In this document: positions 7,630 to 20,800 of the stretch, in pieces
How positions within the stretch are numbered: position 1 is the stretch's first letter
Layout: every line of letters starts with the position of its first letter
Virus record (IMG/VR): IMGVR_UViG_3300033052_000098
Span: 1 to 26,471 of that record
Strand: one strand, 5' to 3'
DNA from: a virus
Length of the DNA stretch: 26,471 nucleotides
Made by a program: the position numbers and the translations under genes
Notes under the pieces: model-generated
Told to the model about the DNA's origin: nothing
The model's input: only the letters and a program-made list of their open reading frames with translations
Database searches by the model: none

Positions 7630-9193
7630 CATGACCGACAACCCCGTCCAGGGCGCCGACGCCATCCCCGCCCAGCCCGATCCGCAGGAGATCGCCGTCT
7701 CGAACGAGACGCTGGACATCACCCGGCTGTTCATCGGCGCCTTGCTCGAGGTCCAGGACACGGTCCTGAGGCGTCTGGGCTCGAACTATGAGGTTTACCG
7801 GGAACTGCGCCGCGACGGTCAGGTCCATTCGACGTTCCAGCAGCGCCGGCTGGCCTTGCGCAGCCGCGTCCTGTCGGTCGAGCCGGGCGCGGACGACGCG
7901 GCTTCGATCGCGGCGGCCGACCAGCTGCGGACGAACCTGGAACAGATCAGTTTCGACCGGGCTACCGGCCTGATGACCTGGGGCGCCTTCTACGGCTTCA
8001 GCGTCGGGGAGTGCATGTGGACCATCCGCGACGGCAAGGTCTGGCTGGCCCGGATCAAGGCCCGCACGCCCTGGCGTTTTCGGTTCAGCGAGACCGGCGA
8101 GCTGCGACTGCTGACCCGCACCAGCATGCTGACCGGGGTGGTCATGCCGTCCGGCAAATTTTGGACGACGTCCTGGGGCGCGGACAATGACGACGAGCCC
8201 TATGGGCTGGGCCTGGCGCACCAGCTGTACTGGCCGATTTTCTTTAAGAAACAGGGCCTGGGGTTCTGGCTGAGGGCGCTGGAGAAGTTCGGCGCGCCGA
8301 CCGGGCTGGGCACCTATCCGGCGGGCACGCCGAAGTCGGAACAGGACAAGCTGCTGGCGGCCGTTCACCGGATGCGGATGGACGGGTCGATCGTCGTGCC
8401 GGAGGGGACGACGATCCAGCTGCTGGAGGCGGTGCGGGGCACGGTGGATCAGGCCGCCTTCAATCGGGCCATGAACAGCGAGATCTCCAAGATCGTGCTG
8501 GGCCAGACCATGACGACAGACGACGGGGCCAGCCTGTCGCAGTCGGAAGTCCATATGGAGGTCCGCGAGGAACTGACCGACGCCGACGCCGAGGAACTGT
8601 GCGAGAGCTTCATGGCCGGGCCGGCCGCCTGGCTGACGGCGTGGAACTTCCCCGGCGCCGCCACGCCCATCGTCAAGCGGATCGCGGCGGAGGACCAGGA
8701 GAAGGCGGCCAAGCTGCTGGTCGCCAAGGCCAGTGCGGTCAAGGCCATGCGGGACGCCGGCTATCAGCCCACGCCGGAGACCGAGGGCGCCCTGTTCGGC
8801 GATGGATGGGTTCGCACGCCGCCCCCCGAGCCGACCATCGATGAGGTCGCCAGGGCGCAGCAGGAACGCGTCGTCCTGCCCGGCCTGCCCGCGCCCAGCG
8901 GAACCGGCTTCGCCGCCGGCGATCATGCCCATGGCGCCGACGCCATCGATCTGTTTGCGGCCGAGGCGCTGGACTGGGCGCCGATGATGGAGGAACCCAT
9001 CGCCTTCCTTGAGGGCTGGCTGAACGACTGCGCCAGCCTGGAGGAGGCGCGAGACCGGTTGCCGGGCCTGATGGCGGGTCTGCCGGTCGAGCGGCTGCGG
9101 ACCGGCGTGGCCCAGGCGGGCCTCGAGGCGCGTGTCGCCGGGCGGGAGGGTCTGGCCCTGTCTGACGAAGAGGATGCCGAGGCCGCCGGCTGA
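7619..9193 (+). CDS. Portal protein (DUF935, Mu gp29 family)
   Basis: 524 aa. Typical DUF935 features are the early RDGQVHSTFQQRRLALRSR segment, the central KFGAPTGLGTYPAGTP and the later QTMTTDDGASLSQSEVHMEV. The protein forms the dodecameric DNA gate at the special head vertex and docks the terminase. About the last 120 residues (after roughly 400) are less conserved in appearance and alanine/glutamate-rich. ATG 7619 overlaps the terminase stop by 11 nt. A second in-frame ATG at 7631, just after that stop, is an equally possible start; neither has a strong ribosome-binding site. Confidence 0.93.
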   Translation: MATDMTDNPVQGADAIPAQPDPQEIAVSNETLDITRLFIGALLEVQDTVLRRLGSNYEVYRELRRDGQVHSTFQQRRLALRSRVLSVEPGADDAASIAAADQLRTNLEQISFDRATGLMTWGAFYGFSVGECMWTIRDGKVWLARIKARTPWRFRFSETGELRLLTRTSMLTGVVMPSGKFWTTSWGADNDDEPYGLGLAHQLYWPIFFKKQGLGFWLRALEKFGAPTGLGTYPAGTPKSEQDKLLAAVHRMRMDGSIVVPEGTTIQLLEAVRGTVDQAAFNRAMNSEISKIVLGQTMTTDDGASLSQSEVHMEVREELTDADAEELCESFMAGPAAWLTAWNFPGAATPIVKRIAAEDQEKAAKLLVAKASAVKAMRDAGYQPTPETEGALFGDGWVRTPPPEPTIDEVARAQQERVVLPGLPAPSGTGFAAGDHAHGADAIDLFAAEALDWAPMMEEPIAFLEGWLNDCASLEEARDRLPGLMAGLPVERLRTGVAQAGLEARVAGREGLALSDEEDAEAAG

Positions 9194-10524
9194 TGGCCGT
9201 CATGGCGTTCACCGGGCGACCGCCGGCCGAGGCCGTCGCCTTTCTGAAGGACAAGCTGCCCGGCGGCAGGATGTCGTTCGACTGGCGCGACGTGTGGCAG
9301 GACGAGCATGTGACCAGCTTCCTGGTCGCCAAGATGGCGTCGCGGGATCTGCTGACCGACGTGCATCGCAGCCTGATCGAAGCCCTGTCGAACGGCACGA
9401 CCCGCGAGCAGTTCGTCAGGGATCTGCGCCCGATGCTGGAAAAGGCCGGGTGGTGGGGACGTCGCGTCCAGACCGATCCCGTTACGGGCCTGGCGCGCGA
9501 GGTTCAGCTGGGGAGCCCGCGCCGGCTCCGCACCATCTTCGACGGCAATATGCGGATGGCCCATGCGGCCGGACGTTGGCAGAGGATCGAGGCGGCCAAG
9601 GCGACACTGCCCTATCTGGCCTATACGGCCGTACTGGACGGGGTCACGCGCCCCCAGCACGCGGCCTGGGGCGGACGCGGCGCGGTGCGGATCGTGCTGC
9701 CGGTCGATCACCCCTTCTGGCGCACCCACTATCCGCCGAACGGCTGGCATTGCCGGTGCACGGTGCTTCAACTGTCCCAGGCGATGCTGGACGCCAGAGG
9801 CTGGAGCGTCACGTCGGAGGCGGAGTTGGCCGAGACCAACTGGACCCGCACCCGCCCCTGGCTGAACGGCCGCACGGGCCGGACCGAGACGGTTCCGGTC
9901 GGCATCGATCCGGGTTTCGCCTATAACGTCGGCCTGTCTCGACGGGCCGCGCTGACGCCGCCGCCCGTGCCCGAGCCCCAGCGCGAGATCGTGGTGGGCG
10001 AGCGGTTTCCTCGCGCACTTCCTCCGGCGCTCAAGCCGAGGCCCTACCCGGCCGGGATCGCCAAACGTCCCGAGCTGGAAGGGGAGGCGGTGTTCGACGC
10101 CTTCACGCGCGCCCTGGGCGTTCAGGAAGGCGGCGTCTTCTTCGACCGGGCGCAGACCCCGCTGGCGATCGAGCGCGGCCTGTTCCAGCAGAAGACCGCC
10201 GCCGGTGCGGTGATCCAGGGCAAGGAGGCGAAGGGCGGGCGGGCCGCCTATGCCGAGGTGTTCGCCGCCACGCTGAAAGACCCGGACGAGATCTGGATGT
10301 CGGCCCAGCTGCAGGCGGATGGGACGGCGCGCCTGGTGCGAACCTATGTCGGGGCGTGGGACGATCCTGACGGCGAACGCTACTGGATGACCGTGGTGTT
10401 CAGCGAGCGGGACGGCTGGTGGTGGGGCACGACCGCCTTCGCCCCCAATCCGCCCAAGGCCAAGGCCGAGCGCTACACCGCCAAGAACGGCCGGGTGGGC
10501 GTGCTTGTCTATCGCCGGAAATGA
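9193..10524 (+). CDS. Mu F-like minor head protein with C-terminal PBECR-like nuclease domain
   Basis: 443 aa. The N-terminal ~230 residues are the Mu F/SPP1 gp7 head morphogenesis domain. The signature is GNMRMAHAAGRWQRIEA, then LDGVTRPQHAAW and NGWHCRCTV at 183-191 (C187 and C189). After a proline-rich linker, residues ~296-443 resemble the PBECR (phage Barnase-EndoU-ColicinE5/D-RelE-like) nuclease domains known at the C-termini of such head proteins: DPDEIWMSAQLQ, RLVRTYVGAW, YWMTVVFSERDGWWWGTTAF and the terminal GRVGVLVYRRK strand. If ejected with the genome this domain could act in the recipient cell; that is inference. The start overlaps the portal stop (TGATG). Confidence 0.88.
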   Translation: MAVMAFTGRPPAEAVAFLKDKLPGGRMSFDWRDVWQDEHVTSFLVAKMASRDLLTDVHRSLIEALSNGTTREQFVRDLRPMLEKAGWWGRRVQTDPVTGLAREVQLGSPRRLRTIFDGNMRMAHAAGRWQRIEAAKATLPYLAYTAVLDGVTRPQHAAWGGRGAVRIVLPVDHPFWRTHYPPNGWHCRCTVLQLSQAMLDARGWSVTSEAELAETNWTRTRPWLNGRTGRTETVPVGIDPGFAYNVGLSRRAALTPPPVPEPQREIVVGERFPRALPPALKPRPYPAGIAKRPELEGEAVFDAFTRALGVQEGGVFFDRAQTPLAIERGLFQQKTAAGAVIQGKEAKGGRAAYAEVFAATLKDPDEIWMSAQLQADGTARLVRTYVGAWDDPDGERYWMTVVFSERDGWWWGTTAFAPNPPKAKAERYTAKNGRVGVLVYRRK

Positions 10525-10953: not shown

Positions 10954-12117
10954 GTGACCAAGACCACCATCGAGATTTTCCGCGCCGGAACCCATACGGC
11001 GATGGACGGCAAGACCTACACCTTCACCAAGGCCGACCTGGAGGCCACAGCCGCCGCCTATGATCCGGCGGTGTTTTCGGCGCCCTGCGTCGTCGGCCAT
11101 CCCAAGACCGATGATCCGGCCTATGGCTGGGCGCAGTCGATGCGGGTCGAGGGCGAGGTTCTGGTCGCCGACGTCGATCAGGTCGAGCCGGCCTTCGCCG
11201 AAATGGTCAATGCGGGGCGTTACAAGAAGGTCTCGCCCTGGTTCTACGGGCCGGCCGCCCAGGCCAATCCTGTCCCCGGCGTCTATTATCCGCGCCACAT
11301 CGGCTTCCTGGGGGCCGCCGCCCCCGGATGCCAGGGTCTGGCGCCGGTCGCCTTCGCCGCCGGCGACGACGCCGAGCTGATCGCCTTCGCCACGGACGAG
11401 GAACTGCGGCCCCTGGTCTGGCTGGCCCGCAACGTCGGCCGGATGTTCCGGCGGATGCGCGACCAGCTGATCGAGGACAAGGGGCTGGAGGAGGCCAACA
11501 AGCTGCTGCCCGAATGGGAGGTGGACGCTCCGGCCGAGATCGCCGCCCAACTGGACGTCGCCCTGTCGTCCGACGCCCGTCCGGCGTTCGCGGCGCCTGA
11601 AGCACCGTCCCTCGCCGCTCCGACGGCTGATCTGGCGGCTGATCCAGCGGATGCGGACCGCCTCGCTGCGCTTGCCGCCCGCGAGGCCGCCCTGGCCGAA
11701 CGCGAAGCCGGGGTTACGGCCCGCGAGGCCGCCTTCGCCGAGACGGCCCGCGCCGACCGCGTCCAGGAAGACGCGGTCTTCCTGGACGGGCTGATCGCCG
11801 CCGGCCGGCTTGCGCCCGGCTGCAGGGCCGAAGTCGCCGTCTTCTGTGCGGCCCTGGGCGACGGCGAGACCATCGCCTTCGCGGAAGGCGGCGAGGCCGA
11901 AGATCCGCGCGCCCGCTTCAAGGCCTTCCTGGACAAGCACCTGGGCGTGTCGATCCACCTCGGCGAGATCGCCGGGGGCGAGGGACTGCGCTTCGCCGAG
12001 GGCCAAAGCCAAGCCGATATTGAGGCAGCCATCGACGCCGAAATGGCGTCGGCCGCCGCCGCCGGTCACCCCATCAGCGCGGCTGAAGCCAACCGACGCG
12101 CCAAATCCCGCCGCTAG
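10954..12117 (+). CDS. Phage head protease / scaffold (Mu I-type)
   Basis: 387 aa. The N-terminal half is the Mu I-like protease domain: APCVVGHPKTDDPAYGW (H49), GRYKKVSPWFY (S94) and YYPRHIGFLGAAAPG (H115). H49 and S94 are the likely catalytic pair by analogy with prohead proteases. Residues ~215-265 are an alanine/glutamate/arginine coiled coil (AALAAREAALAEREAGVTAR), the expected scaffold part; in Mu a separate scaffold (Z) comes from the 3' part of I. No clear internal start is seen here. The GTG start follows a GGGGCG ribosome-binding site. It is first in the capsid operon and should mature the head during assembly. Confidence 0.9.
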   Translation: MTKTTIEIFRAGTHTAMDGKTYTFTKADLEATAAAYDPAVFSAPCVVGHPKTDDPAYGWAQSMRVEGEVLVADVDQVEPAFAEMVNAGRYKKVSPWFYGPAAQANPVPGVYYPRHIGFLGAAAPGCQGLAPVAFAAGDDAELIAFATDEELRPLVWLARNVGRMFRRMRDQLIEDKGLEEANKLLPEWEVDAPAEIAAQLDVALSSDARPAFAAPEAPSLAAPTADLAADPADADRLAALAAREAALAEREAGVTAREAAFAETARADRVQEDAVFLDGLIAAGRLAPGCRAEVAVFCAALGDGETIAFAEGGEAEDPRARFKAFLDKHLGVSIHLGEIAGGEGLRFAEGQSQADIEAAIDAEMASAAAAGHPISAAEANRRAKSRR

Positions 12118-12544: not shown

Positions 12545-13477
12545 ATGGTAACCCGACCGATCCCCGTCCATCCCGAGTTGACCGCCGTCGCCGTCAAGGC
12601 GCCGGTGCCCAATATGATCGCCGACCAGGTGCTGCCGGAGTTTCCGGTCACATCTGAAGCGTTCAAGTGGAACGAGTACCCCCATGCTCAGGGCGTCACG
12701 GTTCCCGACACCCTGATCGGTCGCAAATCGCGCACCGCCGAAGTCGAGTTCGGCGCCATCGAACGCGACGGCTCGACCCAGGATCACGGCCTTCAGGACT
12801 CGGTGCCGATCACCGACGCCACTGCCAACTCGGACATCGACGCCGAGGCGATGGCGGCCGAAGGCACGTCGCAGCTGGTCACCCTGGCCCGCGAGGTCCG
12901 CACGGCCGCCCTGGTCTTCAATCCCTCAACCTATCTGCCGGCGCAGGTCACGGCCTATGCGGCCGGCGCGGGTTGGACCAACACCGCGACCGATGTTCTG
13001 GGCCAGTTCGAAGACGCCAAGGACGCCATGCTGGTCGATCCCAATACCCTTACGGTGGGCCTGGACGGCCTTCGCGCCCTGAGGAAGCACCCGCAGCTGG
13101 TCCAGGCGGTCCGCCCGTCCAGTTCGAGCGGCGAAGGCCGGTTGACCATTGAGGAGCTGAAAGAGCTTCTGGAGATCGAGACCATCCTGGTCGGTCGCGG
13201 CCAGGTGAACTTCGCCAAGCCAGGCCAGGATCCGCAGCTGCGCCGTGTCTGGGTCGATCACGCCTCCCTGACCTTCACCGAGCGGGTCATCAAGAACAGC
13301 AAGTCCTACACCTTCGGGGCGACGGCGCGCCTGGGGGGCAAGAAGGCCTACAAGTTCTTTGACAAGGACGTCGGCCTGGAAGGCGCCAATGTCATCCGTA
13401 TCGGCGAGCGCCTGCGAGAGCTGATCGTCGCCCAACAGGCCGGCTGGTTGTTCCAGAACGCCGCGAAGAAGGCCTGA
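12545..13477 (+). CDS. Major capsid protein
   Basis: 310 aa, the usual size of transposable-phage major capsid proteins. Recognisable segments are PNMIADQVLPEFPVTSEAFK near the start, the acidic E-loop-like middle, TLTVGLDGLRALRKHPQLV, and LRRVWVDHASLTFTERVIK. A C-terminal block (IRIGERLRELIVAQQAGWL) follows. This should be the HK97-fold shell subunit. The ATG at 12545 has only a weak ribosome-binding site (GAAAG), surprising for the most abundant virion protein. The 40-nt gap before it shows no promoter I can support. Confidence 0.9.
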   Translation: MVTRPIPVHPELTAVAVKAPVPNMIADQVLPEFPVTSEAFKWNEYPHAQGVTVPDTLIGRKSRTAEVEFGAIERDGSTQDHGLQDSVPITDATANSDIDAEAMAAEGTSQLVTLAREVRTAALVFNPSTYLPAQVTAYAAGAGWTNTATDVLGQFEDAKDAMLVDPNTLTVGLDGLRALRKHPQLVQAVRPSSSSGEGRLTIEELKELLEIETILVGRGQVNFAKPGQDPQLRRVWVDHASLTFTERVIKNSKSYTFGATARLGGKKAYKFFDKDVGLEGANVIRIGERLRELIVAQQAGWLFQNAAKKA

Positions 13478-13482
13478 TCGAG

Positions 13483-14169
13483 ATGGCCATCCGTCTTCTG
13501 GTCAATGTCCCGCCGCACGTCGCCGGAAGTGTCGTGAAGGCAGGCGCGCTGGACGAAGCCTTCGTCCAGGAACTGCTCGACTCCGGTCAGGCGGTCGAGG
13601 ATAGGTCTGACGCCGGTCCGGCCGATCCTGCCGATGTCGCCCTGTGCGAGGTGTTCGAACTGGAAGACCAGATCGACGCCGCGATCAGCCGCCGCGCCCG
13701 CGTGGTCATGTTGGTCGATGGCCTGGACGAGGACGCTCGGGCCAAGGTCGATGCAGCCTTGATCACGGCCAGTCGCGTCCGGCCGGAGCTGTTCGGCCTC
13801 GACGAACTGCCGACGTCGGCCGTCGTTGTCGCGACGGATCTGGGTTTGGATGACGTCAAGCAACTGCGTGATCGAGCGCAGCTCGGCATCGATCTGTTGT
13901 TGGCGATCCCGCCGGGCTTCGACCTAAACACTCGTGATCCCGTCGAGATCGTCAGCGAGCTGCAGAAGCAAGTCATGGACCTGGAATCGGCCCGTGAGAT
14001 CGACAGACAGCGGATCGAAGCTGTGACTGGCCAACTGGATGCGGCCAGCGCGGACCTGGCGACTGCCGAGGCCAAGCTGGCGGCGTTGTCGGTCACCGCC
14101 CCGGCCAGCGTCGAAGATCAGCCGACTAATGAACCCGAGGTCAAGGGCAAGAAGCCGCCCAAGGCCTGA
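13483..14169 (+). CDS. Unknown protein after the capsid gene, with C-terminal coiled coil
   Basis: 228 aa, starting 5 nt after the capsid stop. The first ~40 residues (RLLVNVPPHVAGSVVKAG) faintly recall the short N-terminal domain of Mu-like gp35-type proteins. The middle is mixed alpha/beta. Residues ~155-203 form a clear coiled coil (VSELQKQVMDLESAREIDRQ and on), and the end is a proline/lysine-rich tail. Third positions are slightly less G/C-biased than in the capsid gene. Head-tail joining or scaffolding is possible from position, but I cannot assign a function. Confidence 0.7.
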   Translation: MAIRLLVNVPPHVAGSVVKAGALDEAFVQELLDSGQAVEDRSDAGPADPADVALCEVFELEDQIDAAISRRARVVMLVDGLDEDARAKVDAALITASRVRPELFGLDELPTSAVVVATDLGLDDVKQLRDRAQLGIDLLLAIPPGFDLNTRDPVEIVSELQKQVMDLESAREIDRQRIEAVTGQLDAASADLATAEAKLAALSVTAPASVEDQPTNEPEVKGKKPPKA

Positions 14170-14178
14170 CCCTTGTAA

Positions 14179-14250
14179 CCGGCCGTCGTCGTCAGCCCGC
14201 GCCAGGGCGACGGCGGCCGGCTTAAGCGACGCCCGGCCGGGCGGGCGTCG
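14179..14250 (+). terminator. Two hairpins between the capsid block and the Acb2-like gene
   Basis: First hairpin: CCGGCCGTCGTCG (from 14179) pairs imperfectly with CGACGGCGGCCGG ending at 14220. Second: CGACGCCC (14227-14234) pairs perfectly with GGGCGTCG (14243-14250), followed by TCCCCCTCTT. Neither has a true T-run, so they may be partial terminators or mRNA-stabilising structures. This 117-bp gap is one of the few in the structural genes. Confidence 0.45.
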
Positions 14251-14286
14251 TCCCCCTCTTCCACTTCAACTTCGTCAGGACCGATC

Positions 14287-14472
14287 ATGACCGCCACGCC
14301 TGGACATCGCGAGTTGAGCCCGAACCAGATCGAGCGGATCGCGGCGATCAAGGACGCGGGCGCGAGCCTGATGGAGGTTCTGGACGTCCAGCCGGCCGGC
14401 CGTGAGTTGAGCATCGCCAGGACCAAGGTCGAAGAGGCGATCATGTGGGCGACCAAGGGCGTCGTCGGCTGA
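14287..14472 (+). CDS. Small Acb2/Tad1-like protein (candidate cyclic-nucleotide sponge)
   Basis: 61 aa. Sequence order fits the Acb2/Tad1 hairpin family: GHRELSPNQIERIAAIKDAG, a short linker, then GRELSIARTKVEEAIMWATKG. That is two helices, with the second carrying the A-x-T-K-x-E-E-A-x-M-W pattern typical of these phage proteins. From memory, Tyr11 and Lys26 of Pseudomonas phage Acb2 contact cyclic dinucleotides. H7 and K22 here have the same 15-residue spacing, with histidine in place of tyrosine. The known proteins soak up CBASS or Thoeris signals, and acb2 lies beside capsid genes in some transposable Pseudomonas phages. ATG 14287 follows an AGGA, and the stop overlaps the next start. 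Similarity was judged by eye. Confidence 0.65.
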   Translation: MTATPGHRELSPNQIERIAAIKDAGASLMEVLDVQPAGRELSIARTKVEEAIMWATKGVVG

Positions 14473-14909
14473 TGGCCTACGCCACTGTGCAGGATATGGT
14501 CGATCGGTTCACCGAGGCCGAGATGCGCCAGCTGGCGCCGGCCCCGGCCGGCACGGTTCCGCCCTATGTGACCACCACCATCGAGCGGGCGCTGACCGAC
14601 GCCTCGGCCGAGTTGGACTCCTATCTGGCCGTCAAGTTTCCGGTCCCCCTGACCGCCGGCCTGCCGCTGCTGACCAAGGCGGCCTGCGATCTGGCGCGCG
14701 AGGCCCTGGACCGCCAGGGCCGCGAGCCGGTGCTGGAGGCGGGCAAACGGGCGCGGTCCTGGGCGAAGGATGTGGCGGCGGGGCGCGCGACCCTGGGGTC
14801 CGGCCCAGGCGGCGACGCCGAGGCCGTGCCGGAGGTGGAAGGCGGGGTGCAGATCCTGACGTCCGACCGCGTGTTCACCGACGCCGGGCTGGAGGGCTAT
14901 CTGCGATGA
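14472..14909 (+). CDS. DUF1320 protein (Mu gp36-like head-tail connector)
   Basis: 145 aa starting at ATG 14472, which overlaps the preceding stop. The DUF1320 pattern is clear: MAYATVQDMVDRFTEAEMRQL, ERALTDASAELDSYLAVKFP, and LLTKAACDLAREAL. The family is helical and lies between head and tail genes in Mu-like phages, where it probably acts as a connector or completion protein. The last third is less conserved. The stop overlaps the next ATG (ATGA). Confidence 0.85.
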   Translation: MAYATVQDMVDRFTEAEMRQLAPAPAGTVPPYVTTTIERALTDASAELDSYLAVKFPVPLTAGLPLLTKAACDLAREALDRQGREPVLEAGKRARSWAKDVAAGRATLGSGPGGDAEAVPEVEGGVQILTSDRVFTDAGLEGYLR

Positions 14910-17850: not shown

Positions 17851-20800
17851 GCGACCTGATCGCCCGCCTGAGACTGGAGGCCTCCGCCGGCAACGTGCCG
17901 GCGGTGGCGACCCAGACCGAACGATCGCTGGACGGCGTCCGAGCGGGCGCCCAGCGCGCCGGCGCCGGTATGGGCGCCGCCCAGGCCGACGCCAACCGCC
18001 TGGCGGTCGGACTGGATCGGACCGGCGATCAGGCGGACCGCCTGGAGCGGCGGATGTCGAGCCTGCGCGGCGGGGTTTCGGCCCTGGGCGGGGTTTTGGG
18101 CGCGACCGGCCTGGTGGTGTTCGCCGGGGACATCTCCAAGGCGGCCTTCGCCGCCGGCGGGCTGGAGCTGGGCTTGGGCGCCGTCGCCGGCGGCGCGGCC
18201 GGGGCCAGCGCCGAACTGGCCTTCGTCCGGACCGAGGCGGCGCGGCTGGGCCTGGTCGCCCAGGCGACCAGCAAGGACTTCCTGTCGCTGGCCGCCTCGA
18301 CCAACGGCACGGCCATCGCCGGCGAACAGACCCGTCAGGTGTGGCTGGCCACAGCCGAGGCGGGGATGGCGCTGGGCCGCGCCCCCGAGGAGATCGGGCG
18401 CGGTCTGAATGCTCTGTCGCAGATCGCCGGCAAGGGCGTGGTCTCCATGGAAGAGGTCCGCCAGCAGCTGGCGGAGGCCATTCCCGGCGCGGCGATCATC
18501 GGCGCGCGGGCCATGAACATGACCTCGGCCGAGTTCAACAAATTGGTCGAGAGCGGCAAGCTGACGGCGGAGGTCTTCCTGCCCGCCTTCGCCGCCCAGC
18601 TGCGCGAGGAGTTCGGGCCGTCGATCGACGCCTATCTGACCAGCCCGCTCGGTGTGGCGCGTCAGGAAACCGGCGCTTTCCAAACCTCGTTGAACGACCT
18701 GAGGGCCGCGAGCGGCGAGGGCTTCCTGGAGGGGATGACCGACGGGCTTAAGCGGCTGAACGCCGAGCTGGGCAGCGAGGAGGCGGCGGAGCGGGCGCGC
18801 GACATCGGCCGCGCCCTCGGCGAGGCGGCGACGGTGGGGGCCGACGCCCTGATCTTCCTGATCGACCACCTGGACGAACTGCAGACGGCCGCGGAGGCGG
18901 TGGCCGGGGTCGCCCTGGTTCGATTCCTGACGGGTACGGCGGCTGCGGCGCGCGAGGCGGCGGCGGCCTATGTGGTCAAGGCCGGGGCGGCGCGGACGGC
19001 CGCCGCCACGGCGCAACAGGGCCTGGCCGCCGAGGCCGTCGCCCTGGGCGGGGTGCGCGGCGCCATCGTCCAGGCGGCCCAGGCCGAGGTGGTCGCGGCC
19101 CGCGCGATCCAGACCACGACGCTTCAGCGCGTCGCCGCCGCCGAGGCGGCCCTGGCCCTGGCGCGGGTCGAGGCGGCGACGATCACCAATTCGGCCACTC
19201 TGGCCCAACGCCGCCAGGCGGTCGCCCTGGCCGAGGCTGAACTGACCGCCGCGCGCAACGCCTCGGCGGTCGCCGCCGGCCGCGTGGCCGCCGCCGAGGC
19301 CGGACAGGCGCGGTCGCTGACGGGACTGGGCCAGGCGGCCGGGGTCGCCAAGGCCGGAATGAGCGGACTGCTGGGGCTGGTCGGCGGTCCCTGGGGCGCG
19401 GCTTTCCTGGCGGCCGGAGCGGCGGTCTACGCCCTGGTCAAGGCGCAGGAAGCCGAGGAGGCCAAGAGCCGGGAGCTTCAGGGCGTCCTGGAAGAAGGTC
19501 GCGCGCGCTACGTCGCTTTGGACGAAGCGCGTCGCGCCTTGGGCGGCAGCACGGGCGAGGTCATCGCTGCAGAAGATCAGGCGGCCGTGTCCGCCGCCAA
19601 CCTCGCCGGTGAAGTCGATAAGCTGGCGGACGCTCACTATCGCGCGGCGGCGGCGGCGCAATGGCACGCGCTGCAAGAGCTTAAGCTGCAGGCGACCAAG
19701 TCCAAGACTGCAGCCGACGAAGCGCTCGGGCAATATAACCAGCGGCGGGAGATCGCGGCCTCGGCCGAGCGCACGGTTTCGACGCCTTATGGTTCGGCGC
19801 CGATGATCGGCGGGTCGCCCTATACGGCGGCAGGGGATGCGCGCGCGCGCAACTCGGAAGAATACCGCACGGCCGCCGGGCTTATCGAAGTCGCGACCCG
19901 TGACCAGGCTGAAGTCAGGGCGGCTGAGGCGCGTCTGCGCGATGGTGTTGATGTTCCGGAGCCGACCGTCGCGACCAACACCGTCAGCGACAGCAAGGGG
20001 AGCAAGAGGCGGGACCGCGCCCGCGATCTGGCGGCCGATCTGGCGTTGGAAAAGGCCGCCTTCCTGAGCCATGCGGAGGCCGCGCTGAAGGGCGAGGCGG
20101 CCCTGGATCAGTGGCGGATCACCCAGGCCGGGGTCGAGGCCGTGGCGCGCGCCGGCGTCGAGGCGTCATCGACCGCCGCCATGGCCATTCGGGACCAGGC
20201 TGAACAGGTCGAACGCCTGGCCATCGCGGACGAGCGGATCGAGCGCGCGGCCGGATTCCGGCGCGCGGCCGAGGCGGACACCGCCGCCCTGGTCCGCAAG
20301 GGCGCCGCGGCGCTGCAGGGACAGGCCGCGCTGGAGGCGCTGCGGATCTCGGAAGCCGGGCTCGAGGTGCTGAGCCAGGCGCGGGTCGAAAGCCTGGATC
20401 AACTGAACGGCAAGGAACGCGAGGCGGTCGCCGCCGCCGTCGCCTCGGCCGAGGCGCGAGAGCGCCAGGCCATCGCCACCGAAAAGGCCGAGGCCGCCGG
20501 TCGTTCGATTGAAGAGCTGGACCGTCAGATCGCGACCGAGGAACGCCGTCAGGCCGTCGTCGGTCGCGGGGTCGAGGCCGAGGTCGCCTATGCCCGGGCC
20601 GAGTTCGTCCGTCAGGAGGTCGAGCGCGCCGGTTTGCGGGTCACCGACGAGGCGGCGCGGGCCATCATCGACAAGGCGAACGCCCTGTTCCGCCTGCAGG
20701 CGATCAGCGACGGTTCGCAGGCGGCGGCCGACGCCGAGCGCGAGTTGCGGCTGATGCGGCTGTCCAACCGCGAGCGCGAGCTGGCGGTGAGGGCCGAGAC

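Follow-up and report, generated by a model that had tools for sequence, protein, structure and literature searches.

A predicted short Acb2-family gene with a rare histidine at the nucleotide-stacking position, located between the capsid and gp36 genes of a Mu-like phage fragment

Acb2, or anti-CBASS 2, is a sponge for bacterial cyclic-nucleotide alarm signals. The Acb2 hexamer binds three cyclic dinucleotides, and two cyclic trinucleotides occupy separate, independent sites at the trimer interfaces (PMC12043709; PMC10097602). The trinucleotide site is common to Acb2 and Tad1, and the gcADPR pocket of Tad1 is made by loops of a required N-terminal beta-sheet (PMC12043709). In Vs.4, the Acb2 of phage T4, mutation of L29/A66/A73/A77 abolishes hexamers and the exchange Y8A lowers cGAMP binding more than 5-fold (PMC10097602), and T68M in T4 Acb2 also lowers binding (PMC12657230). 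After deletion of acb2, CBASS-escape mutations have been reported in the major capsid gene (PMC10419184). The family is already known, and the gene described here is an added member of it with a rare histidine at the stacking position.

The window, meaning the whole stretch of 26,471 bases that was analysed, corresponds to an IMG/VR virus record that lists no host, and it covers part of a B3/Mu-like transposable phage. Its genes represent the head-tail half of such a phage (GemA, peptidase M15, terminase, portal, Mu F-like protein, protease, scaffold, capsid, gp36 and tail genes), and its portal is 38-43% identical to those of B3, JBD67 and others. On the plus strand, the gene of the major head protein (12545-13477; phrog_1005, E = 2.7e-69) is followed by a 228-aa gene (13483-14169), whose same-position counterparts in relatives have Lys-rich ends, by a gap of 117 nt (14170-14286) and by the acb2-like gene (14287-14472). 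The latter starts 810 nt past the end of the capsid gene and directly abuts the gene of the head-tail adaptor gp36 (14472-14909; PF07030, E = 1.2e-19), its TGA sharing one base with the gp36 ATG. The open frame begins with ATG, is preceded at a distance of 6 nt by AGGA (14277-14280), a probable ribosome-binding site, and encodes a product of 61 aa, MTATPGHRELSPNQIERIAAIKDAGASLMEVLDVQPAGRELSIARTKVEEAIMWATKGVVG; the reverse strand of the same interval is also open over 62 codons. A scan found neither a sigma-70 promoter nor an intrinsic terminator near the gene, and an Rfam search of the window gave no match. Two strong adjacent RNA hairpins without a T-run are predicted in the 117-nt gap (-55 kcal/mol, z = -2.3) and could serve in processing or attenuation. 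Elsewhere in the window, the Mu F-like head protein (9193-10524) has at its C-terminus a PBECR2 domain (Barnase/EndoU/ColicinE5/D/RelE-like nuclease; E = 2.7e-19), predicted to be an RNase-like domain on a capsid-associated protein. ARAGORN called a tRNA-Pro (11043-11131, minus strand) and a tRNA-Gly (18147-18246, plus strand), both inside coding genes and probably false positives of G+C-rich DNA.

The 61-aa frame is real and belongs to the Acb2 family, whose proteins consist of the PF24729 hairpin without a further domain. Pfam hmmscan matched it to PF24729 (Acb2_Tad1_hairpin) with E = 1.4e-17 and 64.1 bits (cut-off 27), residues 6-59 covering profile positions 1-56 of 58, which is far beyond chance. 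The preliminary description had placed the product in the Acb2/Tad1-hairpin family, with a two-helix pattern and an A-R-T-K-x-E-E-A-x-M-W signature, and had proposed that a missing profile match or a fold without the helical hairpin would speak against this; the profile match was obtained, the signature runs from A44 to W54 within the helix-2 family motif G38-R-E-x-S-x-A-x-T-K-x-E-E-A-x-M-W54 (14401-14451), and the hairpin was recovered by modelling. AlphaFold2, run on a 71-sequence alignment, gave two antiparallel helices (residues 12-33 and 39-60; pLDDT 93.2, pTM 0.73) and no beta strands. The first five Foldseek matches in the PDB were 7uq2 (Vs.4) and 8h2j/8h2x (Acb2), with probabilities of 0.91-1.00 and TM-scores of 0.66-0.77 on query length. 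Their E-values of 0.2-1.1 exceed 0.1 owing to the shortness of the query hairpin; the ranking supports the sequence result and would be insufficient alone.

Other searches agree with this assignment. The PHROGs matches are phrog_1454 and phrog_717 (unknown function), the second of which is also the best PHROGs family for PaP2 Acb2 and JBD67 gp34. In a phmmer search of PDB sequences, Acb2 homolog 43 (9ptq) was best (E = 8e-5) and T4 Vs.4 weaker, and a profile built from seven relatives matched PaP2 Acb2 (8h2j, 8ixz), Vs.4, 9ptq and Tad1. TALE-like and designed-protein matches in the phmmer search were set aside as chance repeat or helix matches. NCBIfam gave no match to the protein, nor did PADLOC, which covers defence and not counter-defence families. 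No close relative of the gene was found in the searched collections, the best having 55% identity. In a hairpin tree of 72 columns the protein pairs with Barebow (support 0.81), probably by long-branch attraction, so that the tree does not place it; the only well-supported clade (0.95) unites six sequences from the capsid slot of Mu-like phages (L051, L056, L058, L078, L079 and L081).

His7 (codon 14305-14307) and Lys22 (14350-14352) are 15 residues apart, which equals the spacing of Tyr11, the cGAMP-stacking residue, and Lys26 in PaP2 Acb2. Their equivalence to this pair, suggested in the preliminary description, follows from both a profile alignment to PDB 8h2j and a direct alignment, and the two residues also align with Tyr8 and Lys23 of Vs.4. 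In an alignment of 97 distinct sequences, counting that of the window, 90 have Tyr at position 7, two have His, two Pro and one Val, and two have a gap. The stacking Tyr is thus typical of the family, not universal, and the protein has His in its place. The conserved ligand-contact Lys is present in 96 of the 97, the window protein among them. Arg39 is conserved in 94 and Thr46, the counterpart of T68 in T4 Acb2, in 92, although helix-2 conservation is partly built in, as the patterns used to search the collections sat in helix 2; for the same reason position 7 was not selected for. The second His7 sequence (L090, 6168-6353) is the only natural Tyr-to-His variant found besides the window; it comes from an Acidobacteria MAG, where it lies within a Mu-like element and upstream of the terminase region, outside the capsid slot. 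Natural Pro at the stacking position occurs in L081 (3944-4156), where the gene is located in the capsid-gp36 slot, and in L060 (1542-1730), and Val in L013.

The four residues required for hexamers in Vs.4 are all identical in the alignment, as L28, A44, A51 and A55. Of the remaining Vs.4 ligand contacts, R79 corresponds to K57, H11 to L10 and F82 to V60, and at other mutated positions S74 corresponds to I52 and the helix cap T12 to S11. The missing counterpart of Phe82 is not disqualifying, because PaP2 Acb2 has Ala there. The N-terminal extension 'DxRTxNNxxRH', present in its closest sequence relatives, is missing from the protein, as is the C-terminal tail seen in PaP2 Acb2 and Vs.4. Taken together, His7, the absent Phe82 counterpart and the changes of H11 to L10 and S74 to I52 mean that the dinucleotide pocket may be weak.

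The order capsid, small gene, acb2, gp36 recurs in other transposable phages. It is found in JBD67 (Pseudomonas, Beetrevirus; PF24729 E = 3.4e-16), bearing out the earlier statement that acb2 adjoins capsid genes in transposable Pseudomonas phages, and in the cyanophage JY19 of Leptolyngbya (E = 3.9e-19), in both cases annotated 'hypothetical'. The slot is also filled in a prophage of Alphaproteobacterium Mf 1.05b.01 (L093, equal to L136), with a weak match in a second alphaproteobacterial genome (L140), and in the six IMG/VR phages of the clade named above. No acb2 is present in the slot of B3, Bhz63 and YPCBV-1, of nine alphaproteobacterial prophage fragments in which both neighbours are present (L116-L119, L121-L124, L126), or of the nearest relatives of the window, L143 (terminase, 71%) and L146-L148 (gp36, 51%). 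Exact peptide patterns found no relatives of the capsid protein in IMG/VR. Because some relatives carry acb2 in the slot and others do not, the gene is accessory, and this distribution fits the expectation for an accessory counter-defence gene. The occupants are of two sequence types, PaP2-like in JBD67 and JY19 and 'VEEAxMWA' in the window, which suggests from sequence that acb2 entered the slot more than once, the tree being too weak as proof.

Two further arrangements were observed in related phages. In L143, the closest relative of the window phage, the slot is occupied by an unrelated 92-aa ORF (18054-18332; MKWFFSLFLPLVAVLD...), a candidate accessory gene, perhaps for counter-defence. 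In two Mu-like phages (L002, 4546-5199; L004, 7938-8609) an Acb2-type hairpin runs on in frame, as a fusion, into a C-terminal part of about 145 aa. This part opens with a membrane-like, hydrophobic stretch and matched nothing in Pfam or PHROGs. From their sequence these fusions are possible membrane-tethered sponges.

An alphaproteobacterial setting of the window phage is plausible. At the DNA level its closest matches are spread across phages of Chromohalobacter, Rhodobacter/Rhodovulum, Stenotrophomonas and Pseudomonas, and the search found no genome that was nearly identical. Among 385 sampled alphaproteobacterial genomes, 14 have CD-NTase (SMODS) genes over the cut-off and six have PF24729, so that target and counter-measure both exist in Alphaproteobacteria.

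Based on the family match, the modelled fold and the conserved residues, it is probable that the gene encodes a short Acb2 member which sequesters CBASS cyclic oligonucleotides and blocks the death effector while virions are built. The gene would be co-translated with the late head genes, and its product would assemble into a hexamer that binds cyclic trinucleotides of the host CBASS at the trimer interface and possibly dinucleotides in side pockets, signal capture keeping the effector off during assembly. Production with the capsid message would also fit the reports of CBASS escape through the capsid gene (PMC10419184). Trinucleotide binding is the safer prediction, because R39 and T46, which we infer to take part in the trinucleotide site, are kept across the family while position 7 varies. 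Dinucleotide binding is plausible as well, since His is also capable of stacking and the loss in Vs.4 Y8A is given as only >5-fold (PMC10097602).

The fold and hexamer could have been kept and the dinucleotide pocket lost through His7 and the short ends, leaving cyclic trinucleotides or some other signal as the sole ligand. Such a shift in signal choice is possible, if on the doubtful side: residue 7 is the contact that varies (five of 97 have His, Pro or Val), R39 and T46, where helix 2 begins, are conserved across Acb2 and the clade of the window, and the two kinds of site are independent in Acb2 (PMC12043709). However, His is able to hydrogen-bond as well as to stack, the cost of Y8A is limited, and PaP2 Acb2 binds cGAMP despite its Ala at the Phe82 position. 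More speculative is the proposal that the Tyr-to-His exchange and the shortened ends define a minimal Acb2, with the dinucleotide pocket retuned or lost, which would act as a 61-aa sponge for cyclic trinucleotides or a still unassigned alarm signal and be deployed alongside the capsid, itself connected with escape from CBASS. That the gene is instead a decaying, inactive relic is very unlikely; the near-universal Tyr and the N-terminal extension of the closest relatives have been lost, yet the frame is open with a good start signal, all oligomer residues and most basic contact residues are intact, and the PF24729 score is level with that of intact members.

The position between capsid and gp36, the translational overlap with gp36 and a weak HTH_38 score (E = 0.16) could also be read as signs that this virion-operon protein serves in head-neck assembly or binds DNA and has no sponge function. 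We regard this as very unlikely, as many intact relatives have no acb2 in the slot, the family occurs far from head genes in T4 and HK639, and the HTH_38 score is under the cut-off and overlaps helix 1 only. An anti-Thoeris role as a Tad1-type cyclic ADP-ribose sponge, offered as an alternative in the preliminary description, is weak and highly improbable, because the N-terminal beta-sheet domain that precedes the hairpin in Tad1 is absent from the strandless 61-aa model. The helix-2 motif does match Tad1 (the seven-relative profile reaches 7uav/8kbe with E = 0.004) and Pfam puts Acb2 and Tad1 in a single hairpin family, but Foldseek places Vs.4 and Acb2 ahead of Tad1.

The general picture of Acb2 is unchanged by this gene. 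To our knowledge, few phage genes are annotated as anti-CBASS in alphaproteobacterial prophages. The comparison confirms that transposable phages from widely different hosts, alphaproteobacterial prophages among them, have acb2 genes in one recurrent accessory slot situated between the genes for capsid and neck, and the slot itself may repay a search for other counter-defence genes. With only 61 aa, the protein in addition offers a compact natural means of testing which parts of Acb2 each signal requires.

Compared with the described systems, the protein shares with Acb2 of the Pseudomonas phages PaP2/PaMx33 (p26; 8h2j, 8h2x, 8ixz) the hairpin fold, PF24729 and the aligned pairs K26/K22, R67/R39 and T74/T46. 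The pairwise identity to PaP2 Acb2 is 21%, and the window protein differs in having His for Tyr11, a length of 61 instead of 93 aa, a shorter loop between the helices and no tail at the C-terminus; in the podophage PaP2, acb2 is not part of a Mu-like head operon, whereas the present gene lies inside one. T4 Vs.4 (7uq2) is the best Foldseek match and has the helix-2 motif IAxTKxxEAxMWA, with its four hexamer residues and K23 identical, while Tyr8, Phe82, His11 and Ser74 are replaced by His, Val, Leu and Ile. JBD67 gp34 (YP_009625958.1, 'hypothetical protein') shares PF24729 and the identical capsid/gp36 slot, but is of the PaP2-like 'IQTG' type with Tyr and a long inter-helix insert. Acb2 homolog 43, the best PDB sequence match, shares the REx-S-x-x-x-TKxEEA motif. 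Tad1 (7uav, 8kbf) shares the hairpin motif SRE-x-x-A-x-T-x-VEEA-x-MW and, unlike the window protein, an additional N-terminal beta domain that forms the gcADPR pocket.
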